54,254 nucleotides of DNA from Clostridia bacterium (GTDB lineage Bacteria; Bacillota; Clostridia; Oscillospirales; Acutalibacteraceae), in NCBI GenBank assembly GCA_017516745.1, contig JAFXBF010000025.1, positions 1-54,254 on the forward strand, in the 5' to 3' direction. The notes beneath the pieces were generated by a model, which did no database searches, was not told the DNA's origin, and was given only the letters and a program-made list of their open reading frames with translations. Of this stretch, positions 24,132 to 40,624 are shown in pieces; position 1 is the stretch's first letter; every line of letters starts with the position of its first letter. The position numbers and the translations under genes were made by a program.

Positions 24132-25370
24132 TCAATCAATTTTGCCGAAAGCCTTTTGTACCGCATAATATGCAGGCTTGGGCTTGCCTTCGTAATCTAC
24201 GATACCCCACTTTGTTTCTACAGGACACTCAATCTGACCGCAGACATAGCAATGGCCGTTGTCCTGCCACTCGTAAACGAAAGCGCCAATAACAAAATCA
24301 AGCTTTTCAATCTTCGGAATTATGTATTCGTAGAATTTTGCCTGACCTTCGGCTGTGTGCTCAAAGCCGTAAAGACCTATGCCTTCTGCAAGCTCACAGT
24401 AAATGTGGTTGCTGTATTCGCCTTCAAAGAGGAGCTTTCCTTTTTCTTCGGCGCTCAGGTCGGCGTAGTAATTGTCAAATTCTTCCTTGATATCGGGCGG
24501 AAGCTTTGCAATAAAGTTGTCAACGTCAGCAATTGCTTCCTTTTCGCTGGAGTAGCCGTAGCCTTCAAGAATTTCTCTCTTTTCCTCTGCTGACTTGGGC
24601 TCGCCAAGACCGATATAGCCGAATTCACACATCATAACGGGCTTTCCTGTAGCCACTCTTACATATTTAAGTGCGGTTAAATACATATCTGCATTTTTGG
24701 TTATGTTTTCAAAGCAGCCGAGATATACGTCAATACCTACATAGTCGCAGTATTTGTGGTAGTCTCTCATAAGTCCGGGTAGCTGAAGCATAGCCTGTGC
24801 ACAAAGGTTGTAGCCCGTGATGATGTTGCCCTTTACCGGGTCCATAGCCTCAAGCTGAATACCGATGAATCTTGCGGCTTCTTCAAGCGTAAGCGGCTCT
24901 GTGAAGCGGTCAACACCCATTTCGTTGGTTATCTGGTAGGCATCAACAATACCCTTTAAATCTTCAACATAGAAAACTGCAATTTCCTTGATTTTTGCTT
25001 CGTTTTCGGGAATTCTCGGGTCAAGACCGATTTCTATGTATTCGTCGGGGTAGGGGGTAACGCCCATAATTCTAATGCCGTTGTCCACATACTCCTGCAT
25101 TTCTGCTTTCCAGTTGTTGTAGTGGATGTTTGGGCTGCCGTCTGCATTGATGGGTAACGGCATATCCTCACGCAGCCATTCGATGTTAGCATCTGTGATA
25201 AGCTCATATTCACGGTCGGTGTGGCATATACCCTTTATAAATCCGCCGACCTTATCTTCGGCAATTTTTATCTCCTTGTCAAAGGGCACCGTCGGGTCGG
25301 TGATTATAAGATTGGCAATGGGAGTAAGTATTGCTAAAATGAAGCCGACAATTGACATTAAAAATGACAT
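24132..25370 (-). CDS. Clan GH-A-like TIM-barrel glycosidase-like protein (paralog 2)
   Basis: 412 residues from the ATG at 25370, which has AGGAG nine bases upstream; an ATG three codons earlier abuts that site and is unlikely. It is paralogous to the protein at 6372-7613: shared GIxH, NIEWxRxDxP, QITNEMGxxRFT, YHKYCDYVGxDxYLGCF and MxEFGYIxxGxPK motifs. Probable catalytic Glu residues lie in ITNEMG and MMCEFGYIG. The cysteine loop is reduced to C-x2-C-x4-C ahead of VETKWGIVD. Unlike paralog 1 it starts with a hydrophobic segment (SFLMSIVGFILAILTPIANLI) that looks like a signal anchor, so it should face outside. Divergent from the GDPD pair. The reaction is unknown; glycoside hydrolysis is inferred from fold motifs. 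Confidence 0.7.
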   Translation of the reverse strand: MSFLMSIVGFILAILTPIANLIITDPTVPFDKEIKIAEDKVGGFIKGICHTDREYELITDANIEWLREDMPLPINADGSPNIHYNNWKAEMQEYVDNGIRIMGVTPYPDEYIEIGLDPRIPENEAKIKEIAVFYVEDLKGIVDAYQITNEMGVDRFTEPLTLEEAARFIGIQLEAMDPVKGNIITGYNLCAQAMLQLPGLMRDYHKYCDYVGIDVYLGCFENITKNADMYLTALKYVRVATGKPVMMCEFGYIGLGEPKSAEEKREILEGYGYSSEKEAIADVDNFIAKLPPDIKEEFDNYYADLSAEEKGKLLFEGEYSNHIYCELAEGIGLYGFEHTAEGQAKFYEYIIPKIEKLDFVIGAFVYEWQDNGHCYVCGQIECPVETKWGIVDYEGKPKPAYYAVQKAFGKID

Positions 25371-25544
25371 CGTTTTCATCTCCTGTTCGGTTTTTTGCTA
25401 TGTTATCATTTTTGTGATTTAAAAATCAATGAATAATTTATTAATTATTCTTCTTTTCGGAAATTCGGAATTAGAAACAATTTGAAGCGCAATTTTTTGT
25501 GAAAAGTATATATAATAATTATAATAATTTGTGTATTTCGGTTG

Positions 25545-25572
25545 TGGACAAATATTTCCTTTATGATATAAT
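25545..25572 (+). promoter_or_regulatory. Promoter for the GDPD pair
   Basis: TGGACA at 25545-25550 and a perfect TATAAT at 25567-25572 with a 16-bp spacer. The rest of the 25380-25604 gap is AT-rich with no visible gene. Confidence 0.6.
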
Positions 25573-25604
25573 AATTTCTATTATTGTTTAAAGGAGATAC
25601 AGAT

Positions 25605-26450
25605 ATGCTTGCAGTTTTGAACAAAATCATAACTCTCATTCTCGTGCCGCTTTATATGTGCCCGTGGCTGCCGTGTCTTAACGTTGTTAAGCTGTTCAAT
25701 CAGCCCAAGGAAGTTATTTCCCTGAGCGAAAACGGCATCGGCAGCGAGGCTGACCCCGTTTACCTTACGGCACACAGAGGCGTTACAGCCCGTGCACCAG
25801 AAAACACCGTCCCGGCTTATGAAGCGGCCGTTGAACTCGGCTACTATTCGGCAGAGTGCGATATCCGACTTACCAAGGACAACGAGTGGGTTCTTATCCA
25901 CAACAGCACAACCGATACCTGGTTCTGCCAGTACGGCAACGTGAGCGATTACACTCTTGAAGAGCTCAAATCCTTCAGCTACAAGTGGGGCGTAAACTTC
26001 TGGCAGGAGGGGCTTAAAATCCCGACTCTCGATGAATATCTCGATGTTTTCGTCGGCAAAAAAACACGTCCGCAGATTGAAATCAAGGGAGATAACTACG
26101 ACCTGCTTTACACAATTGTTGACGCTGTAAAAGCAAAGGGTCTTGAGGAAAGCGCAATCATCATTTCCTTTGACCTTGAGCAGCTTAAGGTTATCCGTAA
26201 ATATGATGCCAATATCGAGCTGTGGTATCTTATTGACGAAATCACACCCAAGACTATTGAAGAGGCAAAGGCACTCGGCGGTAATGTATGGCTTTCGCCC
26301 AGCTTTGAGAAAAACACGAAAGAGTCAATCCAGCTCGCCATTGATGCAGGCGTTCCCGCTTCCTTCTGGACTGTAAACACTCTTGAGGATGCAAAAATGC
26401 TCTACGATATGGGCATCAGATACATTGAAACAGACATACTCTGCAATTAA
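25605..26450 (+). CDS. Glycerophosphodiester phosphodiesterase family protein 1
   Basis: 281 residues from the ATG at 25605, which has AAAGGAG suitably upstream. An N-terminal hydrophobic segment (LITLILVPLYMCPWL type, ~5-22) probably anchors it in the membrane with the enzyme outside. The GDPD TIM barrel is clear: AHRGVTARAPENTVPAYE (catalytic His, metal Glu), then AECDIRLTKDNEWVLIH, EIKGD and SFDLEQL. It should release alcohol and glycerol-3-phosphate from glycerophosphodiesters such as deacylated phospholipids or teichoic acid pieces. An oddity is that the usual HD after the second strand reads HN (IHNSTTDTW). The second GDPD-like gene begins 18 bases after its stop, so they form an operon. 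Confidence 0.9.
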   Translation: MLAVLNKIITLILVPLYMCPWLPCLNVVKLFNQPKEVISLSENGIGSEADPVYLTAHRGVTARAPENTVPAYEAAVELGYYSAECDIRLTKDNEWVLIHNSTTDTWFCQYGNVSDYTLEELKSFSYKWGVNFWQEGLKIPTLDEYLDVFVGKKTRPQIEIKGDNYDLLYTIVDAVKAKGLEESAIIISFDLEQLKVIRKYDANIELWYLIDEITPKTIEEAKALGGNVWLSPSFEKNTKESIQLAIDAGVPASFWTVNTLEDAKMLYDMGIRYIETDILCN

Positions 26451-26468
26451 TTTACAGGAGAATTTAAA

Positions 26469-27491
26469 ATGAATATATTAGGAATACTTACACTTTTTAA
26501 AAATGTTTATCACGCCCTGCTTTCCATTGTTGTTGCCCTTCCCCTTGTTTTCACAATGGGTGCTGATGACAAAGAGGGTACACAGGTCGTAATAAACGAA
26601 AACGCAACAAATCCGTACATTGTCGATTATATGAATCCCGATATTTCTGCTCACCGTTCAGGCGCAGGCGTAGCACCGCAGAACACTCTTATGGCGTTTG
26701 AAACAATGCTTGCAAACAATGCCGAATACGGCGTTGATACCTTTGAATTTGACGTTCAGCTTACTGCTGACGGTGAACTTATAGTTCTGCACGACCTTAC
26801 TTATGATTCAACCACAAACGCAGTCGAGGCTTACGGCCACGATTCGGTTTATGCTTCCGAGCTTACTCTTGCCGAGGCAAAGCAGCTGAATATGGGCGAA
26901 AACTTCCAGCTTAACGGCGAATATCCCTACAGAGGCCTTCGTGGTGACGATATTCCCGATAACCTGCGTGTACCCACCTGTGAAGAGGTTATCGACCTTA
27001 TCGAAGCTAATGCAGAAGGCAGAGAGTTCCGTTACATCATTGAAATCAAGAGCAAGGGCATTCAGGGCTTTGAGGCTGCTGACAAGCTCTATGACCTTAT
27101 ATTTGAAAAGGGGATAGAGGACAGGGCAATCTGGGCTTCCTCCAAGCTTGAGGTTTCCTACTATATGGAAAACAAGCACCCCGATATGCCCCGTTCCGCA
27201 GGTGTTATCGAAGTTCTGCAGTTCTACATTTACGCAAGAATGGATTGGGATTTGAACGACGTCAACCCGACCTATGTTGCTCTTCAGATTCCCTACGGCG
27301 ACAGCGCAGCAGGCGGTATCATCAACCTCGGTACAAAGCAGTGCATTAACTATGCCCACAAGTATAACATCGCTGCACAGTACTGGACTATCAACGATGC
27401 CGAAGCGGTTGAATACCTTGTCAATAACGGTGCGGACTGCATTATGTCCGACTACCCCGATATGGTAAACGATATCGTCAACGGTAAATAA
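26469..27491 (+). CDS. Glycerophosphodiester phosphodiesterase family protein 2, altered site
   Basis: 340 residues; ATG after ACAGGAG. An N-terminal hydrophobic signal or anchor (~5-28, LLSIVVALPLVFTMG) is followed by a GDPD barrel: SAHRSGAGVAPQNTLMAFE, FEFDVQLTADGELIVLHDLTYDSTT, IIEIKSKG and a C-terminal QYWTINDAEAVEYLVNNGADCIMSDYP. The HD dyad is kept, but HRG reads HRS and the PENT Glu that normally binds metal is Gln (PQNT). This could lower or change activity. It follows the first GDPD gene directly. Together they might act on different diesters, or one could be regulatory; both are inference. Confidence 0.85.
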   Translation: MNILGILTLFKNVYHALLSIVVALPLVFTMGADDKEGTQVVINENATNPYIVDYMNPDISAHRSGAGVAPQNTLMAFETMLANNAEYGVDTFEFDVQLTADGELIVLHDLTYDSTTNAVEAYGHDSVYASELTLAEAKQLNMGENFQLNGEYPYRGLRGDDIPDNLRVPTCEEVIDLIEANAEGREFRYIIEIKSKGIQGFEAADKLYDLIFEKGIEDRAIWASSKLEVSYYMENKHPDMPRSAGVIEVLQFYIYARMDWDLNDVNPTYVALQIPYGDSAAGGIINLGTKQCINYAHKYNIAAQYWTINDAEAVEYLVNNGADCIMSDYPDMVNDIVNGK

Positions 27492-27504
27492 GATAATATT
27501 ATTA

Positions 27505-27538
27505 AAAGCTCTCTTGTTCAATCGAACAAGGGAGCTTT
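27505..27538. terminator. Bidirectional terminator
   Basis: AAAGCTCTCTTGTTC (27505-27519) pairs with GAACAAGGGAGCTTT (27524-27538), one G-U, 4-nt loop, flanked by A/T runs. Between convergent genes. Confidence 0.9.
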
Positions 27539-27543
27539 AATAA

Positions 27544-28086
27544 TTAATTCCACAGCATCGGAAAATTTTCCGCAATAAATTTACTCATCGGATTATTCAT
27601 ATCATTTTTCAGGCCGTATTTTTCAATAGTGCTTCTCATATCGTCAAGCACAAAAGCCATTTCCTTTTCCGGTATGCGGTCAAAAGGCTTTATATCGAAT
27701 AAACCTTCTTTCCGGTACTCGGCAAATTTTTCATAAATATCTTTAATTTCAATGCATTTACATACCTTGACAGGGCTTTCGGTTGTGTAGGCGCAGTTGA
27801 TTGCCGTTGCATTTTCGGCGTTTTCCGCAACCTCACATTCGTACAGAAAACCCGTCTTGCCTTGGTAAAGCTTTTTAAAGCAGTCCTCGAAGTATTCGCT
27901 GTAAATAACCTTGCCTGAGTCAAAGCCGTAGGGGTAAAAGCTGAAAGGCTTTGGCACGGGCTTAACAGCGTACAGCAGAGCAACAACGGGGTTGCTCGAC
28001 AGATAAACGTAAGCCTTCCCGTGCTCGGATAAAAACGGCTTTAATTGAGTCAGACCCCCAACACAGGAACCGTGATATAAAAGCAT
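27544..28086 (-). CDS. Small protein with ADP-ribosyltransferase-like N-terminal pattern
   Basis: 180 residues; ATG with AAGGAG upstream. I do not recognise a named family. The beginning, LLYHGSCVGGLTQLKPF followed by VYLSSNPVVALLYA, resembles the ART fold seen in Arr-like enzymes: a YHG motif, an L-x-P loop, then YVYLS and a helix packing into the site. A middle region with GFLYECEVAENAE could hold the third strand. The C-terminal third is helical and charged. There is no signal peptide, so it is cytoplasmic. It is alone between the GDPD pair and the four-helix-bundle element. An NAD-using or toxin-like role is a hypothesis from motif shape only. Confidence 0.5.
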   Translation of the reverse strand: MLLYHGSCVGGLTQLKPFLSEHGKAYVYLSSNPVVALLYAVKPVPKPFSFYPYGFDSGKVIYSEYFEDCFKKLYQGKTGFLYECEVAENAENATAINCAYTTESPVKVCKCIEIKDIYEKFAEYRKEGLFDIKPFDRIPEKEMAFVLDDMRSTIEKYGLKNDMNNPMSKFIAENFPMLWN

Positions 28087-28170
28087 TCTTGTTCTCCTTG
28101 GAATTTATTTGCTGATTAAAACATTTTGTACCATACTGTACTAATCAAATACTAACAATTCTTTGATGTA

Positions 28171-28515
28171 TTATGCTTTACCTTTTAAGGTTTTACAACT
28201 TGCAATTAACATTCTTCTTATACGACCGCAAAGATTTCTGTTGTTCTTATAAGTGACTTCATCAATATAATGGGTGTTAAATAATAGTTGTAACCAACCT
28301 TCTGTTTCACTGCATTCTTTTAATGAAATCTCGAATTTAGAGAGCATATCCGCTTTGCTTTGACCGTAATTGGCTTCGCGGATATTAGCGTAAACACTGC
28401 TTGAGCTTTTACGCATTTGAAACAGTGTGTTTGACGGAGCTTTTATATTTTGACAAAGCAACTCGATATCCGTTGCCAATTGTTCGGAATATATGAGTAA
28501 ATAATTTACAGCCAC
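28171..28515 (-). CDS. Four-helix-bundle protein (23S IVS/Avd-like)
   Basis: 114 residues from the GTG at 28515, with AGGAAG seven bases upstream. The protein matches the small four-helix-bundle family first seen in 23S rRNA intervening sequences and related to Avd of diversity-generating retroelements. It has MRKSSSSVYANIREANYGQSKADMLSKFEISLKECSETEGWLQLL, split here across helices 2 and 3, plus a basic C-terminus (RIRRMLIASCKTLKG). Family members form basic pentameric barrels that bind nucleic acid. On this strand its promoter is TTGATT (28560-28565)/TATAAT (28537-28542), 17-bp spacer. Promoter and ribosome site sit inside the first units of the adjacent hairpin array, so gene and array look like one element. 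No reverse transcriptase is nearby. Confidence 0.85.
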   Translation of the reverse strand: MAVNYLLIYSEQLATDIELLCQNIKAPSNTLFQMRKSSSSVYANIREANYGQSKADMLSKFEISLKECSETEGWLQLLFNTHYIDEVTYKNNRNLCGRIRRMLIASCKTLKGKA

Positions 28516-28520
28516 ATAAT

Positions 28521-28733
28521 CACTTCCTTTGTGATGATTATACTGTAAAGTTTGCTAAAAATCAAGGCGAAGCCTTGTATATCATCAATTCCGTAGGAAT
28601 TGCATATCATCAAAACAAAGTTTTGTATATCATCATTGCGAAAGCAAGTATACAGCCTGCGGCTGATGATATACACACTTCGTGTGATGATATACGCCTG
28701 ACGGCGATGATATGCCATTGCTTTCGCAATGGA
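28521..28733. repeat. Symmetric array of eight perfect hairpins with inverted 10-nt linkers
   Basis: Eight different short palindromes follow one another: CAAGGC-GAA-GCCTTG (28563-28577), CAATTCC-GTA-GGAATTG (28586-28602), CAAAAC-AAA-GTTTTG (28611-28625), TTGC-GAAA-GCAA (28636-28647), CAGCC-TGC-GGCTG (28653-28665), CACAC-TTC-GTGTG (28674-28686), CGCC-TGAC-GGCG (28695-28706) and CCATTGC-TTTC-GCAATGG (28715-28732). Left of the centre the joints read (T/C)ATATCATCA (28578, 28603, 28626). Right of it they read TGATGATATA or a piece of it (28664, 28685, 28706), the reverse complement. The midpoint is the self-complementary GTATAC (28648-28653). Linkers can therefore pair as nested rungs with hairpins as side branches. 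A partial unit, CAC...GTG-TGATGATTATA, lies at 28521-28542 over the gene start. Confidence 0.9.
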
Positions 28734-28734
28734 T

Positions 28735-28772
28735 AAAAAAGTCCGACAAGTTAAAACTTGTCGGACTTTTTT
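28735..28772 (-). terminator. Terminator of the tRNA-Ala gene
   Basis: AAAAAAGTCCGACAAGT (28735-28751) is exactly complementary to ACTTGTCGGACTTTTTT (28756-28772), loop of 4. It ends transcription on the minus strand directly after the tRNA, and separates it from the hairpin array. Confidence 0.9.
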
Positions 28773-28847
28773 GGTGGACCCGAAGGGGATTGAACCCTCG
28801 GCCTTACGGATGCGAACCGTACGCTCTCCCAGCTGAGCTACGAGCCC
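28772..28847 (-). tRNA. tRNA-Ala (anticodon CGC)
   Basis: A complete 76-nt cloverleaf on the minus strand with encoded CCA. The stems are: acceptor GGGCTCG/CGGGTCC, D stem GCTC/GAGC, anticodon stem TACGG/CCGTA with loop TTCGCAT, and T arm GAGGG-TTCAATC-CCCTT. The anticodon CGC reads GCG. The G3-U70 pair in the acceptor is the alanine identity element, which supports the call. Promoter: TTGACA (complement at 28891-28896) and TATAAT (28867-28872), 18-bp spacer. Confidence 0.95.
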
Positions 28848-28899
28848 ATATTAATTTTGTAATTAGATTATAAATCTTCCTCAATATTTTTGTCAACCC

Positions 28900-28928
28900 T
28901 TGAATTATTATAGAAACTATAGTATAAT
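28900..28928 (+). promoter_or_regulatory. Promoter for the MltG-like gene
   Basis: TTGAAT at 28900-28905 and perfect TATAAT at 28923-28928 with a 17-bp spacer. It overlaps the divergent tRNA-Ala promoter region, so the two may influence each other. Confidence 0.75.
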
Positions 28929-28954
28929 CTAAAATTAGATGTTGGAGGATGAGA

Positions 28955-29758
28955 ATGAAAAAGACAATAACACTAATTCTTGCGTTGCTTTCCTTTCTTT
29001 CACTTTTCGGTTGTTCTGCCGAAAAAATCAAAGAGGAGCTTCGCCCGACCACAACCGCAATTCCGACAGTCAGGGTTATGTTCCCCGAGGGCTCAACTGT
29101 CAGCGAAATTGCCGCATTGTTAGAACAAAACGGAGTTTGCTCTGCGGAAGGCTTTATGGCGGCTGTCAATGCACCCGAAGGCGATTATTACTTTATCGAG
29201 GGGATAGAAAACCCCGAGGAAAGACCGTTTCTGCTCGAGGGCTATGTTTTCCCCGATACTTATGAGTTTTATTTTGATATGACTCCGCAGGCGGTGCTCA
29301 AAAAATTCCTTGATAATTTTGAAAGCAAAATCACTCAGGCGGATTTTGACCGTGCAGCCGAATTGGGCTATACGATTGACGAGGTTATCCGCATAGCCTC
29401 CATTATTCAGGAGGAAGCTCTTGACCCCGAAATGAAAAAGGTTTCCTCCGTCCTTCACAACAGGCTTGATTCCGCATACGGCAAGCTTGAATGCGATGTA
29501 ACGATTTTCTACCTTCGCAATTCTGTCGAGCCCTATGTTGAGGATATTTCGGTTTACAGCGAGCTTTACAACGCCTATAAGCGTGTCGGCTTACCTGCAG
29601 GGCCTATAACAAACGTCGGCAGAAATGCAATTGAAGCTGCTCTTTACCCCGAAGATACCGACTATTACTTTTTCCTCACGGATAAGGATATGAATTATCA
29701 CTATGCCGTAACGTGGGCTGAACACAGCAAAAACGTAGATAAGTATATCGAAGATTAA
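28955..29758 (+). CDS. mltG: MltG-like endolytic murein transglycosylase, lipoprotein form
   Basis: 267 residues from the ATG at 28955, six bases after GGAGG; the ATG at 28949 abuts that site. MltG cuts nascent peptidoglycan glycan chains at the membrane. The signature runs LLEGYVFPDTYEFYFD, then VIRIASIIQEEAL with the catalytic Glu at about 153, then VSSVLHNRLD and GLPAGPITNVGRNAIEAALYP near the end. Most MltG proteins are anchored by a transmembrane helix. Here the leader ends LSLFGC, a lipobox, so it is probably a lipoprotein. It is also short, lacking much of the N-terminal LysM-like part. It is followed after 50 bases by another lipoprotein gene, with a small AATGCC/GGCATT hairpin (29770-29787) between. 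Confidence 0.85.
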   Translation: MKKTITLILALLSFLSLFGCSAEKIKEELRPTTTAIPTVRVMFPEGSTVSEIAALLEQNGVCSAEGFMAAVNAPEGDYYFIEGIENPEERPFLLEGYVFPDTYEFYFDMTPQAVLKKFLDNFESKITQADFDRAAELGYTIDEVIRIASIIQEEALDPEMKKVSSVLHNRLDSAYGKLECDVTIFYLRNSVEPYVEDISVYSELYNAYKRVGLPAGPITNVGRNAIEAALYPEDTDYYFFLTDKDMNYHYAVTWAEHSKNVDKYIED

Positions 29759-29811
29759 CAGTTGTAAACAATGCCTGTTTAGGCATTAAATATGAAAGGA
29801 GAATTCCCCGT

Positions 29812-30738
29812 ATGAAAAAACTTCTTGCACTTCTTCTTGCCGCTGCAATGCTCCTTAGCTTTGCTGCCTGCGGTGAGAAAGAACCCGACCCCGTAACAGA
29901 CGAATCCACCACACTCGCCGACGAAACACTCGATGCAAATGCTACAGAGGCTCCCTCTGCAGATGCAACAGAGTCCGCAACAGGCGAAACAGAGCCTGCT
30001 TCCGTTGAGGATGCTACAGGCGAAGCAACATCCGAAGCAGCATCCGAAGAGGATTCAACAGCTGCTGAAGAATCAACAGCTCCTGCCAAGCCCGCTTCCA
30101 AGGACGAAATTATTTCCTACTACAACACAGCAGTAAATGAAGCTGTAGCTGCAAAGGTTGGCTTTAACAAGCTCCGTTATGTTGACAATGAGCAGCTTAA
30201 TGCCGGCTTCCTTCTCAAGACATTCGGCAGCCTTCTGTATCAGTTTATGGGCATCGGCGCAGAAAACAAGTACACAATGGACGTTACCAAGGGCCAGTGG
30301 GAAGCTGACCTTCCTCACCAGTACCTTCGCAAGAGCACACTTTCAGCTGCTGACGTAACAAATGCAACCTGCACAGCTAACGGCAACCAGTACACAATTG
30401 TAATGGATGTCAAGGGCGGCAAAAGTTATGCTGACAAGAATTCCAAGTCCAACAGCTCTCCCATCGACAAGTGCGGTATCTGCGTTGGCGATGCAGACAA
30501 GAGCTATTTTGACCACAAGACAGCTATCGTTATTTACGATGCAATTGACGATGTTCTCGGCGGCGCAAAAATCAGCGAGAGCTACAACAACGCAAAGGTT
30601 AAGGCTGTTATCGACTCAACAACAGGTCATCTTGTAAGCCTTACTGTTGAATATAATATCAGCGTTGTTATTGATGCAGCCGGCGGCGGTAACGCAACAG
30701 GTTCATCACACACTATCTACAAGAACTTCAAGTATTAA
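29812..30738 (+). CDS. Lipoprotein of unknown function
   Basis: 308 residues; ATG after AAAGGAG. The lipoprotein leader ends LSFAAC (lipobox, Cys20). A low-complexity linker rich in Thr, Glu, Ala and Ser covers ~24-100, as in surface lipoproteins that stand off from the membrane. A folded domain of ~200 residues follows. It has KDEIISYYNTAVNEA, a YTMDVTKGQW strand, NQYTIVMDVKGG and a late KAVIDSTTGHLVSLTVEYNISVVI pair of strands; its shape suggests a beta-rich ligand-binding module. I do not recognise a named family. It may share the MltG-like transcript and ends at a strong terminator. Confidence 0.8.
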   Translation: MKKLLALLLAAAMLLSFAACGEKEPDPVTDESTTLADETLDANATEAPSADATESATGETEPASVEDATGEATSEAASEEDSTAAEESTAPAKPASKDEIISYYNTAVNEAVAAKVGFNKLRYVDNEQLNAGFLLKTFGSLLYQFMGIGAENKYTMDVTKGQWEADLPHQYLRKSTLSAADVTNATCTANGNQYTIVMDVKGGKSYADKNSKSNSSPIDKCGICVGDADKSYFDHKTAIVIYDAIDDVLGGAKISESYNNAKVKAVIDSTTGHLVSLTVEYNISVVIDAAGGGNATGSSHTIYKNFKY

Positions 30739-30759
30739 TCAAAATACATACATAAACTT

Positions 30760-30791
30760 CAAAGGCTTCTGTTTAACCGCAGAAGCCTTTG
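30760..30791 (+). terminator. Intrinsic terminator
   Basis: CAAAGGCTTCTG (30760-30771) pairs perfectly with CAGAAGCCTTTG (30780-30791), followed by TTTTTTT. Confidence 0.95.
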
Positions 30792-30837
30792 TTTTTTTAC
30801 CGAATATTTTTTGATTTATACCGAACAGCAAAAATTT

Positions 30838-30866
30838 ATGACAGGACAAAATATAAGTGCTATACT
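30838..30866 (+). promoter_or_regulatory. Promoter for the LytTR/DUF3021 operon
   Basis: ATGACA (30838-30843), 17-bp spacer, TATACT (30861-30866). Confidence 0.6.
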
Positions 30867-30891
30867 CATAACCGAAAGGAGGGAATAGCCG

Positions 30892-31323
30892 ATGGAATAT
30901 AAACTTATAATTGATGAAGCTGCCGACGAGTCGCTTGTGCTTACCGTGCACGAAAGAAACCCACTTGTTGAAAGCGTTGAAAAACTGCTTAACACTAAAA
31001 CGGAGTATCTGACGGCTTATACCGAGGACGAGGTTTTACGCATAGCAGTAAAGGATGTTGACTGTTTTTATACCGATTCCGGCAGGGTGTGTGCCATTAT
31101 CGGTAAAGAGAAATATACCGTGCGCTACAGACTTTATGCACTCGAAGAAATCCTTGGCGATGATTTTGTAAAAATCAATCAGGGCTGTATTGTAAAAGTA
31201 AACGCCGTTAAAAGGTTTGAAGCTTCGGTGGGCGGTGCAATTAAAATTATCCTCGGCAACGGCTTTGAAGATTATATTTCAAGGCGTGAATTATCAAAAG
31301 TGAAAAGGAGATTCGGTTTATGA
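30892..31323 (+). CDS. LytTR-family DNA-binding regulator
   Basis: 143 residues; ATG after GGAGGG. No receiver domain is present. The N-terminal ~45 residues precede a LytTR DNA-binding domain (~48-143): DEVLRIAVKDVDCFYTDSGRV, YTVRYRLYALEEIL, FVKINQGCIVKVNAVKRFEA and an ISRRELSKVKRRF ending, all typical. Stand-alone LytTR proteins paired with a DUF3021 membrane partner are common in Firmicutes and often control their own operon. The stop overlaps the partner's start as ATGA. Confidence 0.9.
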   Translation: MEYKLIIDEAADESLVLTVHERNPLVESVEKLLNTKTEYLTAYTEDEVLRIAVKDVDCFYTDSGRVCAIIGKEKYTVRYRLYALEEILGDDFVKINQGCIVKVNAVKRFEASVGGAIKIILGNGFEDYISRRELSKVKRRFGL

Positions 31324-31730
31324 ATAAGTATGTAAAGGGTTTTTTCTTAAGGGGTCTGATGTTTGGCGGCTTCGGCCCGATTGTTGTGGCGATAGTGTTG
31401 TTTGTCATTTCGTTTTTTGATACGGTCAGCCTGTCCGCTTCACAGCTTCTTGTTGCAGTTGTTTCAAGTTATATCCTCGCCTTTGTTCAGGCAGGCGCAA
31501 CCGTGTTCAATCAAATTGAACAATGGCCGATTTTAAAGAGCATAGGCGTTCATTTTCTTACGCTCTATATTGCGTATTCACTTTGCTACACGGTCAACAG
31601 CTGGATACCCTTTGAGCCTAAGGTGTTGCTCATATTTACGGGTATTTTCATTGCGGTCTATGCTGTGGTTTACATCACGGTTTATCTTATAGTCAGAAGT
31701 ACAACAAAGAAACTGAATAAAGCGCTGTGA
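31320..31730 (+). CDS. DUF3021-family membrane protein
   Basis: 136 residues with four predicted transmembrane helices (~20-40, 45-65, 78-100, 108-130), a short basic N-terminus and a basic KKLN tail. Gene order, overlap with the LytTR gene and size match the DUF3021 partners of LytTR regulators, which are thought to restrain the regulator at the membrane. The signal is unknown. Ends at a terminator shared with the convergent BlaR-like gene. Confidence 0.85.
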   Translation: MNKYVKGFFLRGLMFGGFGPIVVAIVLFVISFFDTVSLSASQLLVAVVSSYILAFVQAGATVFNQIEQWPILKSIGVHFLTLYIAYSLCYTVNSWIPFEPKVLLIFTGIFIAVYAVVYITVYLIVRSTTKKLNKAL

Positions 31731-31735
31731 AAATT

Positions 31736-31772
31736 AAAAAGTGCTCCCGCTTTACATAACGGGAGCGCTTTT
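31736..31772. terminator. Bidirectional terminator
   Basis: AAAAGTGCTCCCG (ending 31749) pairs with CGGGAGCGCTTTT (31760-31772) with one mismatch; A and T runs outside. Confidence 0.85.
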
Positions 31773-31776
31773 GCTG

Positions 31777-34496
31777 TTATTTCGGCTCTTTTACGTATTG
31801 TATCTGCCACGAGTCAAGGTCGCTGATTGAAATATATCCTTTTTCGAGTGCTTCCTTGGCTGTCATCTGTGCTCCGTTTATGAAATTGACTATTACATAA
31901 TCGCTGCGAATCGACGGATAAGAATATATGTATTCGTCGTCTTCATAAAACGGTTGTAAGCTGTGTCGGTTGTAAGCTGTTGCTTTACTGTTAAATCCTC
32001 AATTGAAGTGACAAGCGGTGTGTCGCTGTTAAGCTGTGCGTCAAATTTGACGCAGCTTTTGACATCATCATTCTTTGCCGTATAGGTCAGCATCCAGCCT
32101 GCTACCATATTTGCTACGACCTGCGGATGGTTAACCTGTTTTACGTGAATAATGAAATGCTTGCCGTCGTTAAAAACGCTGTCGATTGCAAAGCGGTGCG
32201 TGCAGTCAGCGCATTGTACAAATACCGCAAACAGCACGTTTTCCTCAAAGAAAGCCTCGTCATACTGCGCTAAAACCGAGTTTACGCTCGGCATTTCGTC
32301 CAAGCCTGAATCAAGTGTGATTTTGTCGCCGTTTGTAGCAATAAACTTATCAATTTCTTTTCGGCCTTCAAATTTGTATATGGGCAGGTGCTTAATGCTG
32401 CTGATATGCAATTTGTCTGCGTTGAGTCCGCCGTAAAGCGTGTTGCTGCCCGTAAATGCGATAGCTGTTTGGGGGTAATTCTTCGTAGTAACGGGCTTCT
32501 TTTCGGTTGTCGTTTCAAGCGGCTTTGCGCTGATTTGCTCCTTATCTTCTTCAGTTGTGGTTTCCTCAAGAGTATAGTGCGTGTAGCCGGGCACTGTGGT
32601 TGCCATTTCGGTTTCCTTACGCAGTGTTTCGGAATACTTTACGCTGTTTTTGTTTAGCTCAAACTCAACCGCCACCTTTACCTCTTCACCGTCAAGACTG
32701 CCCTTGCTCTCAAAGCGGTATCTGCCTTTTTCACTCAGGTCAATAAACGCAAGGTTGTATTTCTTGAAACAAAAGCTATGGGGCTCAACAAGATAACCGA
32801 TTAAGTTGAAATAAGTACCGTCAACATCCGTGCTGCGGCAGTCAACCCATTTGCCGTTATCATAGCGGTAAATGTAAAATTCTTCGCCTATCGTCAGCTT
32901 TTTATCACTCGTGTTAAGCCAACGGACGTTGATATACGGCGAAGTATCCGTTGTGAGTATATTGGTTATTTCCGCTTTGATTTCGGGATTTGTTGAGCTT
33001 GCGTTTTGGCCTTTAATGTAGAGATTCTTAAAGCTTCTGTCGTTTGTGTAGTGGATTATGTTGCAGTAAACCGATATTAAAATATGGTCTTGTGCGTTTT
33101 CGTAAACATCTTTACTTATTGTTATACCAAACTGATTGTCGGGACCCGCTGAACGCAAATCAACGGCATTTTTATATTCTCTCGTACTGTCTGATACATT
33201 GCTGCTTGCAAGGCTTATTCCGTCTAAAAAACCGTTTGCATCCTTGTGAACGGTGGAAAGGATAAAACCGTCCTTTTCGGGTTTATGCTTTATGTTAAAA
33301 AAGAGATATATCTGGTTTTCTCTATCGCTGACAGGCATGATTTTTTCAAGGTAAATGTGAGATGCTTTGCCGTGCTGATAAACTATAACCTCATTTTTGC
33401 TGAAACTGTGCTCCATATCAACCTTTTTGGGCAGCTTGTCAAGCGGAACTCTTAACGTAATCAATGCTCTTTCCTGTGCCGTTATTGTAAAGCCCTGCTC
33501 GTTCATAATTCTGTCGTAGTTTACGGAAATCGGGTTGGTCATAAAGCAGACTGCAACAGCAATGCTCAATATAACCGCAACAATAATCACCCAGAACGCA
33601 GGCTTTTTGTAACTCAGTACGGATTTTATCCTGTTCTTTACGCCGACCTCACCAAAGGCGAGGGGACAGGCGGCAATTGCTTTTCTCGGTACACTGCAAT
33701 TGATAAGTGCCTGTGAGTACGGCTTCTTGATATCCGTGCCCATTTCCTTTATTACCCTTTCGTCGCAGGCAAGCTCAATATCCCTGCAAAGCAATATGTA
33801 TGCAAGCCACATCGCAGGGTTCAGCCAGTAAATGCTCAGCAGCACAAAACCAAGCGGCTTCCAGATGTGGTCTTTTCGCTTCAAATGAGCCGTTTCGTGT
33901 GCAATGACATAGCTCATATCCTCCTCACTCATATAAGAGGGAAGATAGATTTTAGGCCTTATCACGCCTAAAATAAACGGTGTGGGAATGTTGTCACAAA
34001 GGTATATGTTATCCCGAAGCCGTATTGAAGGCTTTGTTTTCCTTCGGATGATCAGGTAGCTTATGAGTGCGTAAAGCAGCATTGCCGCAATGCCGAACAG
34101 CCACACGAAATCCAGCATAATCAGGTCAATACCCACACTGCTTACCGGTGCTTTGAATTCCTGCGTTACCGTTTCGGGGTAATTCGGGTTTGTTACAATG
34201 TCCAGTGTAAATTTGTCGTGCTGTGTGTCCTCGCTGAATATTGCCTCCTGCGGTATCGTTTCTCCGCTTGGCACAAGGCTCATAGGGCTTTCAAGCGAAA
34301 ACGGGCATACAAGCCGTATTGCAACAAGTCCCCATAACGCCACTATCAGCGACTTCGGTGCTTTTTTTAGCACAAAACGCAGTAACACAATTGCAAGAAT
34401 GAGAAACGTTGCGGATATGCTGATGTTTAGCGAACGGTAGTAAAAATCGTTTATAAACCAGTCAACAATTGTTGCCCAAACATTAACAATGTCCAT
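31777..34496 (-). pseudogene. BlaR1-like M56 sensor peptidase with PrcB/Ig-like domains, frameshifted
   Basis: An integral-membrane M56 metallopeptidase sensor. Helices at ~20-43, 48-65 and 128-150 precede a zinc motif HETAH at 200-204 with ELACDE downstream, and further helices at ~215-235 and ~303-325. The external part has a Big_14-like Ig module (WLNTSDKKLTIGEEFYIYRYDNGKWVDC region) and a PrcB-like module near 740-830. The continuous frame stops at 31893 (867 residues). Losing one T in the TTTT run at 31947-31950 explains this: the other frame continues with FYEDDEYIYSYPS, then an MTAKEALEKGYISISDLDSW ending, to a stop at 31777, giving ~905 residues. It is either a sequencing or assembly error, a recent mutation, or slippage; only the last ~60 residues are affected. 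Partner of the BlaI-like gene, two bases upstream. Confidence 0.8.
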
Positions 34497-34498
34497 CT

Positions 34499-34861
34499 TT
34501 ACTTCACCTCGTATTCGTCAACAAGCCGTCTTAATTCGCTTACTTCCTTTTGTGTCAGTTTTTTGCGTTTGGTAAAAGCGGCAAGAAAGGCGGGGAGCGA
34601 GCCTTCGAAGGTCTCCTCAACAAATTTCTCGCTCTGAATGGAATAGAACTCCTCACGGCTTAATTTTGCCGTTACCGTGCTGTTTTCTGTTTGGAATATC
34701 CCTCTTTCACACAGCTTTTTCAGCACGGTGTAGGTGGTCGTGCGCTTCCAGTTAAGCTCTTTTTCGCAAAGCGCAACAAGCTCCTTCGTGGTTAAAGGCT
34801 CGTTTTGCCACACAATGTCGGCAAAGCGGCTTTCAACAACGCCCAATTTCATTTCGTCCAT
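34499..34861 (-). CDS. BlaI/MecI/CopY-family repressor
   Basis: 120 residues; ATG behind AAAGGAGG. A winged-helix N-terminal domain (~1-75: KLGVVESRFADIVWQNEPLTTKELVALCEKELNWKRTTTYTVLKKL, quoted here only by its ends) is followed by a helical dimerisation tail. BlaI-type repressors are cleaved when the M56 membrane sensor is triggered, usually by beta-lactams. No beta-lactamase or PBP2a gene is seen here, so the signal is unknown. The gene begins the operon with the M56 gene, and its promoter holds two matching dyads (34885-34928), consistent with autoregulation. Confidence 0.9.
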   Translation of the reverse strand: MDEMKLGVVESRFADIVWQNEPLTTKELVALCEKELNWKRTTTYTVLKKLCERGIFQTENSTVTAKLSREEFYSIQSEKFVEETFEGSLPAFLAAFTKRKKLTQKEVSELRRLVDEYEVK

Positions 34862-40195: not shown

Positions 40196-40272
40196 GGGAG
40201 CATAGCTCAGTTGGCTAGAGCACCTGCCTTACAAGCAGGGGGTCATAGGTTCGAGCCCTATTGTTCCCACCA
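40196..40272 (+). tRNA. tRNA-Val (anticodon UAC)
   Basis: 77 nt with encoded CCA. Acceptor GGGAGCA pairs with TGTTCCC; anticodon loop CTTACAA gives UAC; T loop TTCGAGC. First gene of the five-tRNA operon. Confidence 0.97.
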
Positions 40273-40279
40273 TTTTAAT

Positions 40280-40356
40280 GGCCCGGTAGTTCAGTTGGTT
40301 AGAACGCTAGCCTGTCACGCTAGAGGTCGACGGTTCGAGCCCGTTCCGGGTCGCCA
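40280..40356 (+). tRNA. tRNA-Asp (anticodon GUC)
   Basis: 77 nt with encoded CCA. Acceptor GGCCCGG, anticodon stem CTAGC/GCTAG with loop CTGTCAC giving GUC. Confidence 0.97.
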
Positions 40357-40368
40357 TTTTTTTTAAAT

Positions 40369-40444
40369 GCCTCTGTAGCTCAGTTGGTAGAGCAGTGGAC
40401 TGAAAATCCACGTGTCGCTGGTTCGATTCCGGCCGGAGGCACCA
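40369..40444 (+). tRNA. tRNA-Phe (anticodon GAA)
   Basis: 76 nt with encoded CCA. Acceptor GCCTCTG pairs with CGGAGGC; anticodon loop CTGAAAA gives GAA. Confidence 0.97.
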
Positions 40445-40451
40445 GCAGTGT

Positions 40452-40527
40452 GCGGATGTAGCTCATCTGGTAGAGCGCCACCTTGCCAAGGTGGAGGTAG
40501 CGAGTTCGAGCCTCGTCATCCGCTCCA
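40452..40527 (+). tRNA. tRNA-Gly (anticodon GCC)
   Basis: 76 nt with encoded CCA. Acceptor GCGGATG; anticodon stem CCACC/GGTGG, loop TTGCCAA giving GCC. Confidence 0.97.
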
Positions 40528-40549
40528 TTTTTTTATAAAAATATAATAT

Positions 40550-40624
40550 GGCGCCATAGCCAAGTGGTAAGGCACGAGTCTGCAAAACTCTGATCCCCCA
40601 GTTCAAATCTGGGTGGCGCCTCCA
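40550..40624 (+). tRNA. tRNA-Cys (anticodon GCA)
   Basis: 75 nt with encoded CCA. Acceptor GGCGCCA pairs with TGGCGCC; anticodon loop CTGCAAA gives GCA. Last gene of the operon and nearest to the integrase, so its 3' end is a candidate attachment site. Confidence 0.97.

Follow-up and report, generated by a model that had tools for sequence, protein, structure and literature searches.

Organization of the locus

The window, that is, the whole stretch of 54,254 nucleotides analyzed here, is derived from a Clostridia bacterium (Acutalibacteraceae; assembly GCA_017516745.1, contig JAFXBF010000025.1, positions 1–54,254), the genome of which (designated G000) is 97% complete. On the minus strand, from 28847 to 27544, a tRNA-Ala gene is followed in order by a terminator hairpin, a mirror-symmetric hairpin array, a promoter-like stretch, the gene of a small protein (hereafter designated IVP), and another ORF, with the following features.

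28772..28847, minus strand: tRNA-Ala (CGC), the encoded CCA end of which (28774–28772) is the docking point of the element
28735..28772, minus strand: terminator-like palindrome A6-GTCCGACAAGTT / AACTTGTCGGAC-T6, left end of the element
28560..28733, minus strand: mirror-symmetric hairpin array with 8 hairpins, 3 + 3 inverted linkers, and the centre GTATAC
28715..28732, minus strand: first hairpin S1 (CCATTGCGAAAGCAATGG), the 5′ arm of which is also complementary to the centre segment S1′ (28636–28647)
28563–28577, 28587–28601, 28612–28624, and 28636–28647: first four of the eight perfect hairpins
28654–28664, 28675–28685, 28695–28706, and 28715–28732: last four of the eight perfect hairpins
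28648–28653: array centre GTATAC
28578 and 28626 (TATATCATCA) and 28603 (CATATCATCA): array linkers
28664 and 28685 (TGATGATATA) and 28706 (GATGATATGC): inverted array linkers
28626..28635, no strand: innermost linker TATATCATCA, which pairs with 28664–28673
28664..28673, no strand: innermost inverted linker TGATGATATA
28537..28542, minus strand: −10-like TATAAT directly after the array, read from the sequence as the presumed IVP promoter
28171..28515, minus strand: IVP gene, encoding a PF05635 / TIGR02436 four-helix-bundle protein of 114 aa, with a GTG start
27544..28086, minus strand: downstream ORF of 180 aa, like the ORF behind the same tRNA in the sister species G002 and G006 (by eye)

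The arms of the terminator-like palindrome (18 + 18 nt) are 100% complementary, and its foot shares the last A of the CCA of tRNA-Ala. The unit is larger than the gene and array described in an earlier reading of this DNA made from its letters alone (hereafter, the sequence-only reading), as it also includes the tRNA docking point, the terminator, and the downstream ORF. The 180-aa ORF gave no Pfam match at E ≤ 0.001; no CA tail is visible beyond it, and the right boundary of this copy was not located. Rfam scanning of 27400–29500 gave no rRNA match. Elsewhere in the window, a BlaR1-type M56 peptidase lies beside a penicillinase-repressor-type regulator (31893–34861), and five tRNA genes are clustered at 40196–40624, the last of which (Cys) runs directly from its CCA into a terminator, with no array within the 100 nt inspected (by eye), and is apparently an unoccupied site in the same genome.

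IVP matched Pfam PF05635 (9e-19; 68.1 bits, cut-off 33.8) and TIGR02436 (1.5e-20; 73.5 bits, cut-off 24), and its AlphaFold2 model (pLDDT 95.9) has helices at residues 5–23, 28–49, 54–80, and 86–112. The window IVP is accordingly modeled as a four-helix bundle, and these matches above the cut-offs bear out its initial assignment to the 23S IVS/Avd class. The closest solved sequence is PDB 2rld (8.9e-16), which has five chains; proteins of the PF05635 / TIGR02436 family presumably form pentameric assemblies. Four residues (S40, N44, E47, and E70) are invariant in 45 IVPs. PF05635 is present in 69 of 150 genomes of the window's bacterial family, and IVP was found in 52 of 299 genomes of the phylum sample.

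Structure and folding of the hairpin array

The eight perfect short-loop hairpins of the sequence-only reading were reproduced with their coordinates. Counted with a stem of 4 or more and a loop of 3–4, they occur within 174 nt, compared with a mean of 1.67 and a maximum of 6 in 1000 dinucleotide shuffles, and each of 616 other 174-nt stretches of the window contains at most 6. The near-constant linker that inverts at the central GTATAC was confirmed as six linkers (3 + 3); with at most one mismatch, TATATCATCA has 17 matches in the window versus 4.15 expected, five of them inside the array. Folding of 28560–28733 (minus strand) as RNA gave −76 kcal/mol, compared with −39.8 (SD 4.15) for shuffles (z = −8.73; 0 of 200 shuffles), and in the minimum-energy structure the linkers pair into a ladder that carries side hairpins, the same as the ladder of rungs proposed before. 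Moreover, 28634–28647 and 28718–28731 are 100% complementary over 14 nt, as had been stated for the centre unit (28636) and the core of the last unit. Because the 5′ arm of the first hairpin also matches the centre segment, as it likewise does in the relatives (by eye), two folds would compete.

When the window array and those of 67 close loci were searched with sequence patterns, exactly 3 + 3 linkers were found in 52 of the 68 (mean z, −6.7), the single minimum-energy folds of which contain three rungs in 30 and no rung in 17. RNAalifold analysis of 38 arrays revealed linker rungs and hairpins with 30 consensus pairs, 10 of which are changed on both sides, in agreement with the view that the stems vary with pairing kept. 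Two rung positions are broken in 10 of 38 (nine C-A) and in 5 of 38 (four C-A) arrays, and linker pairing is not strict. At two loci (L084 and L067), extra palindromic insertions with a second −10-like TATAAT lie between the array and IVP (by eye), as if hairpins had been added in place. A chance origin of the array is ruled out by the shuffles and by the control flanks described below, and an assembly artefact by the recurrence of the array in many genomes; a CRISPR array was rejected, as the "spacers" are hairpins and the repeats invert at the centre.

Association of the array with IVP in relatives

The close IVP set was profiled with 80 loci kept of 156 relatives (84–94% identity), in Clostridia-type MAGs that are mostly from ruminant guts according to the deposit descriptions. 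Close-set counts omit L112 (5333 bp identical to L110), leaving 79 loci, of which 14 could not be read on the left side; of 90 family loci, 86 were counted, the other 4 being too short. Because many related loci stop at contig ends, as repeats do, the copy numbers are lower limits. The identical 5333 bp of L110 and L112 occur in MAGs of two species (goat cecum and goat rectum), representing either recent transfer or a binning error.

Of the 68 close loci, 61 have a mirror repeat in the 450 nt preceding IVP, versus 10 of 125 control flanks; the corresponding numbers are 20 of 31 versus 0 of 59 for same-genus IVPs and 38 of 86 versus 2 of 163 for family IVPs. The close and genus sets, which are not independent (L087 and L124 are the same DNA as the genus loci L006 and L007), were matched by 0 of 495 shuffles. 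Among phylum-wide IVPs, a mirror array was found in 1 of 27 versus 1 of 54 control flanks; hence the gene–array link of the sequence-only reading extends over the close, genus, and family sets but not over the phylum.

Same-genus IVPs (mostly 36–52% identical) often share the design with other linkers (by eye), for example CGATAT, GTGAAATC, GATGAAATC, GTGAAGTT, and AGTTATAT. A repeat word is common to 59–77% of IVP pairs at 60% identity or more and to at most 7% of the pairs below (0 of 2000 permutations), and linker and IVP clade co-segregate, which linkage alone could produce. G002 retains a window-type array, yet its best IVP is only 41% identical, and at tRNA-Ser of G002 and G006 a window-type array is found with another gene and without IVP. 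Within the window's own genome, an other-linker array located directly after tRNA-Leu and a terminator is followed by a C-terminal IVP remnant (L004, G000:C5:53641–56724), and an IVP lies behind the tmRNA gene (L003, G000:C9:56315–59551); in a second species, IVP precedes the tmRNA gene (L030).

Carriage by phages was rejected, as IMG/VR gave no relative at the query's own sequence in a search that reached close relatives only, and just 2 of 50,697 phage records contain IVP relatives, both without annotation. IVP relatives occur in 20 plasmid records, mostly cyanobacterial. One unverified record of 17 kb ("Bacteriophage sp."; L343, MT835815.1) contains a tRNA end, a terminator, a GTGATAT mirror array, and IVP (by eye).

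Relation to Gut-1 RNA

The window array aligned to the full Gut-1 model of Rfam (RF01706, 1–77), that is, three short hairpins joined by a repeated linker, with 30.5 bits (E = 0.00028 on 291 bases), which is below the gathering score of 50. At E ≤ 0.01, 112 of 250 family genomes contained Gut-1, and the match exceeded the cut-off in 89 of them. Of the 18 Gut-1 loci inspected by eye, most correspond to one half, the left, of a GTGAAAT mirror array, and mostly they follow a tRNA, a tmRNA, or the decayed end of a tRNA. The Rfam orphan Gut-1 would thus be, in most cases viewed, the left half of such arrays; Weinberg et al. (2010; PMC2864571) report it as a non-coding RNA solely from environmental sequences, and its Rfam entry gives no function. 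The statement that no described element has this design therefore needs revision in one part, since half of a sister array is Gut-1 (RF01706), and stands for the rest of the unit, which is not in the model.

IVP is present in 3 of 30 kept Gut-1 loci and absent in 27 (flanks of up to about 1.5 kb per side), some of which have another gene. According to the sequence-only reading, the gene–array link would be chance if homologous genes in relatives had no such arrays and arrays were equally common without the gene; arrays lacking IVP are indeed frequent among these Gut-1 loci, whereas the flanks of IVP are enriched in arrays above controls. At the genome level, Gut-1 was found in 54 of 69 IVP-positive genomes versus 4 of 20 IVP-negative ones, the latter being the first listed of 81 (Fisher p = 3e-6).

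Junction at the CCA end of tRNA and tmRNA

ARAGORN analysis of the 65 readable close loci revealed a same-strand tRNA (39) or tmRNA (1) ending at the terminator foot in 40, with a junction offset of −1 in 39 and 0 in 1, and with 14 tRNA isotypes. The remaining 25 loci, of which L073, L076, and L126 were mis-parsed by the script, include 22 with a decayed or contig-cut tRNA/tmRNA end or with the CA tail of a preceding unit (by eye). Moreover, a same-strand tRNA/tmRNA lies within 480 nt upstream of IVP in 36 of 86 loci of the family sample, and an opposite-strand one within 600 nt in 0 of 86. Many IVPs sit behind protein-coding ORFs (by eye).

The terminators of 44 tRNA/tmRNA loci (window included) fell into 13 clusters, and 35 loci belong to four isotype-spanning clusters, as obtained by single linkage at 0.88 string similarity, with which chaining is possible; the largest cluster contains 16 loci of 8 isotypes, and another includes the tmRNA. 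Since similar terminators are found behind different isotypes, the terminator was taken as part of the unit. These same terminators also occur after the CA tails of other cassettes (L120, L123, and L131; by eye). The first base of the unit directly follows the CCA of a tRNA or tmRNA gene in the same orientation; from there come the terminator, the mirror array, a promoter-like stretch, and IVP and/or other genes, and in near relatives the unit closes with a tail whose last two bases are CA, next to the start of a terminator or a further cassette.

Right ends and cargo genes

The right end was placed by comparing, by eye, same-cargo loci behind different tRNAs; it consists of the tail ending in CA (GGCA, CGCA, or CCA), after which an A-run, a hairpin, and a T-run follow. 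The terminator past the CA tail starts another array, or a second cassette, in several loci. In 48 loci, an A-run, hairpin, and T-run lie downstream of IVP, but these do not all mark a cassette end; by pattern, 5 of the 48 open another array (more by eye). CA/CCA tails of some relatives carry GTTCGAA-like words (by eye). The variable ORF after IVP has an ATGA-type overlap start in 35 of 74 cases, and Pfam scanning of 56 cargo ORFs revealed 16 families in all, including GNAT (6), NUDIX (4), SAP (2), and pyrophosphatase, DMP19, WapI, and YcxB (one each). Among the 10 ORFs neighboring the window unit (24132–34861), no recombinase, transposase, or RT was found by Pfam, and no integrase family was found among these 10 ORFs and IVP.

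Occupancy of orthologous sites

At tRNA-Ala(CGC) beside a YceG-like gene, G006 has a like array and another first gene, followed by a like 180-aa ORF, and G002 has a different terminator and array start with the same two genes; the mirror array after CCA is absent in G001, G003, G004, and G007. At tRNA-Ser, four different terminator–array units immediately follow the CCA in G003, G005, G002/G006, and G001, other DNA is present in G000, and the mirror array is absent in G004 and G009 (152 nt only for G009). The G005 and G001 sequences align at 88.6% as far as the CCA and, beginning with the final IVP codons, again at 96.3%; the intervening 591 and 576 bp, respectively, differ in terminator, array, and IVP, and within them only 90 bp of IVP could be aligned (71%). 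The mirror array was found in 0 of 20 family tRNA-Trp genes (one with only 158 nt), many of which have a different terminator of their own at the CCA (by eye). Occupancy of one tRNA differs among species, and different tRNAs bear closely related units.

The comparison of empty and filled sites proposed in the sequence-only reading thus revealed differing occupancy at orthologous tRNAs but no single locus at which the filled and the empty state could both be traced across the two boundaries. The array-free tRNA-Ser and tRNA-Ala orthologues have right flanks unlike those of the filled loci, and the left-flank search for tRNA-Trp gave unoccupied tRNAs but no pair with a matching right flank.

Heptamer repeats beside distant IVPs

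Among the phylum-sample IVPs, 7-nt periodicity of at least 0.6 was observed upstream of 43 of 66, versus 30 of 387 control flanks, and the upstream and downstream flanks of 36 of 61 distant IVPs are complementary above the 99th percentile of mismatched pairs. Eight plasmid IVPs, from 8 of the 20 records (Cyanobacteriota, Bacteroidota, and Spirochaetota), are flanked by heptamers on either side; the complementarity score of their flanks is 20 or more in 7 of 8, a score reached by 8 of 41 mismatched pairs, and only 1 of 8 in this small set lies beyond the 99th percentile of mismatched pairs. Cyanobacterial STRRs are heptamer tandem repeats. The main text of a study on TAACTGA heptamer tandem repeats (PMC4679880) draws no tie to IVP.

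Distant IVPs were found within 23S rRNA in 3 of 20 scanned loci and within RNase P RNA in 1 of 20, namely inside an RNase P class A RNA gene (L201, G304:C1 ~403844–404161; Rfam 1–367 over 775 bp). Two cyanobacterial IVPs with heptamer arrays lie between cas2 and cas1 (L337, NC_019772.1) and between drmD (DISARM) and pglX (BREX) (L338, NZ_LR882951.1); in a CRISPR mining paper (PMC10910872), the legend of a figure on CRISPR adaptation modules names a 23S rRNA IVP. At L197 and L210, an 11-nt tandem repeat is located upstream of IVP in place of the 7-nt one.

Interpretation

The observed anatomy, junction, differing occupancy, and co-segregation are best explained by assuming that the window locus is probably an IVP-linked mobile gene cassette attached at the 3′ terminus of a gene for a stable RNA; it looks like one copy of an undescribed kind of cassette docking at tRNA ends in gut bacteria. 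IVP would recognize the cognate 7–10-nt linker repeated in the array, presented as a folded RNA or as a ladder/cruciform DNA, and the resulting IVP–array nucleoprotein may be what is inserted at CA/AAAA-hairpin sites, with a recombinase or polymerase supplied in trans presumably doing the joining. Arrays without IVP would be non-autonomous relatives. Movement of the cassette itself is what we infer from these features; because it brings a terminator of its own, insertion would do no harm to the tRNA, and its cargo would be expressed from its own promoter.

Insertion at the RNA level, in which the CCA 3′-OH of tRNA/tmRNA is joined to, or primes on, the element RNA, IVP acts as an Avd-like RT cofactor, and the cDNA enters the tRNA locus, is a rather doubtful alternative. 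The mature CCA end as the junction in 40 loci, including one tmRNA, and the location of other IVP genes inside 23S rRNA (3/20) and RNase P RNA (1/20) are consistent with it, palindrome-rich arrays would suit strand switching, and PF05635 resembles Avd, a required partner of diversity-generating reverse transcriptases (PMC10053308). Reverse transcription is an attractive route for its exactness, but the presence of RT does not follow IVP: RVT_1 (E ≤ 1e-10) occurs in 45 of 150 family genomes, that is, in 25 of 69 with IVP versus 20 of 81 without (Fisher p = 0.15, assuming that both counts used the same 150 genomes), and is absent at this threshold from G000, G001, and G013, which all hold IVP; the many IVPs behind protein-coding ORFs also speak against it. 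A diversity-generating retroelement with a resident RT was rejected, as no RVT_1 at E ≤ 1e-10 is found in G000, a genome 97% complete. We consider it unlikely that the array is a regulatory leader, that is, a 5′ operator bound by IVP or another factor, with the tRNA position reflecting the use of read-through. The array does lie 5′ of the promoter-like stretch and IVP in the loci read, and its alternative folds (S1 with itself or with the centre, and the ladder) look switch-like; however, the promoter-like TATAAT comes after the array (by eye), therefore placing the array outside an IVP mRNA started from that promoter, a terminator separates the tRNA from the array, and the units differ at orthologous loci.

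Two further readings were ranked low. That the terminator belongs to the tRNA, the element being inserted downstream of it and not at the CCA, is improbable: unoccupied tRNAs often have their own terminator at the CCA (the tRNA-Trp set and the window tRNA-Cys; by eye), whereas similar terminators are shared by as many as 8 isotypes (16 loci), a further cluster extends to tmRNA, 35 of 44 loci belong to isotype-spanning clusters by single linkage, and the same terminators follow the CA tails of other cassettes (L120, L123, and L131; by eye). Still more improbable is the coincidence of two unrelated things, namely REP/MITE-like palindromes spreading at terminators with IVP merely nearby. Such spreading would account for the common arrays without IVP (27 of 30 kept Gut-1 loci) and for the tRNA-Ser sites of G002 and G006, where a window-type array is accompanied by another gene and lacks IVP, but not for mirror arrays upstream of IVP far above controls in three samples, for a repeat word that tracks the IVP clade, or for the bias of Gut-1 toward IVP-positive genomes (54 of 69 versus 4 of 20, the first listed of 81).

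Extending the interpretation of a mobile cassette beyond the window, we tentatively entertain, at less than even likelihood, that one IVP superfamily underlies 23S intervening sequences, the heptamer arrays of cyanobacteria and other phyla, Gut-1, and tRNA-anchored cassettes, in which each IVP clade would recognize a short repeat of its own and direct insertion at or in stable RNA genes, and which in gut Clostridia has led to integrase-less gene capture at the mature CCA of tRNAs and tmRNA. Inverted arrays of the clade's own repeat would bracket or head each unit. No paper was found that joins IVP with tRNA-anchored cassettes, hairpin arrays, Gut-1, or heptamers, a weak absence, since preprints and most subscription journals were outside the coverage. 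Gut-1, an Rfam orphan since 2010, gains a context, and PF05635, a family without an assigned role, is tied to cognate repeat arrays. The ligand of an S23/IVS protein may be predictable from the array beside its gene, which makes an old question directly testable; if the cassettes move, they would represent a route of gene capture in gut bacteria via tRNA 3′ ends with no integrase seen.

Comparison with known systems

The 23S rRNA intervening sequences with an S23p ORF (Coxiella and Leptospira) are regarded as a selfish element of unclear origin and function (PMC4990558). They resemble the window-type units in the PF05635 protein, a stable RNA gene as the site, and complementary sequence around. 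The window-type units differ in lying behind tRNA/tmRNA rather than within rRNA, in placing the entire mirror array, with its side hairpins, 5′ of the gene, and in having their own terminator, promoter-like stretch, cargo genes, and tandem units. Membership of the window locus in the 23S intervening sequences was rejected, as there is no rRNA in 27400–29500 and both inverted halves are 5′ of the gene, with no stem around the ORF.

Gut-1 shares with the left half of the mirror arrays three hairpins with a constant linker, whereas its Rfam model lacks the right half, tRNA, IVP, and cargo, and the linker of the window differs. As for heptamer repeats, many IVPs outside the window's bacterial family are preceded by heptamer arrays with family-specific 7-nt words, whereas in the window array the words are separated by hairpins.

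Integron cassette arrays have one docking point, one orientation, tandem folded cassettes, and GNAT/NUDIX-type cargo, and the window-type cassettes likewise have a single docking point and orientation, tandem units, folded arrays, and GNAT/NUDIX-type cargo. Their docking point, however, is the tRNA CCA end, with no integrase among the neighboring ORFs scanned, and each unit has a promoter-like stretch and a terminator, with IVP present. tRNA 3′ ends are also used by tRNA-targeting genomic islands and tycheposons; unlike these, the window-type units are about 1–1.5 kb with no integrase seen, and attach after the CCA at 14 isotypes, with like left ends. REPINs, palindromic repeats with a cognate gene (RAYT, a Y1 transposase) and many gene-less copies, are comparable to the window-type arrays, which are also palindromic and have a cognate gene that many copies lack; the window-type arrays are distinguished by a four-helix-bundle gene in place of the Y1 transposase, by their mirror symmetry, and by docking at the CCA.
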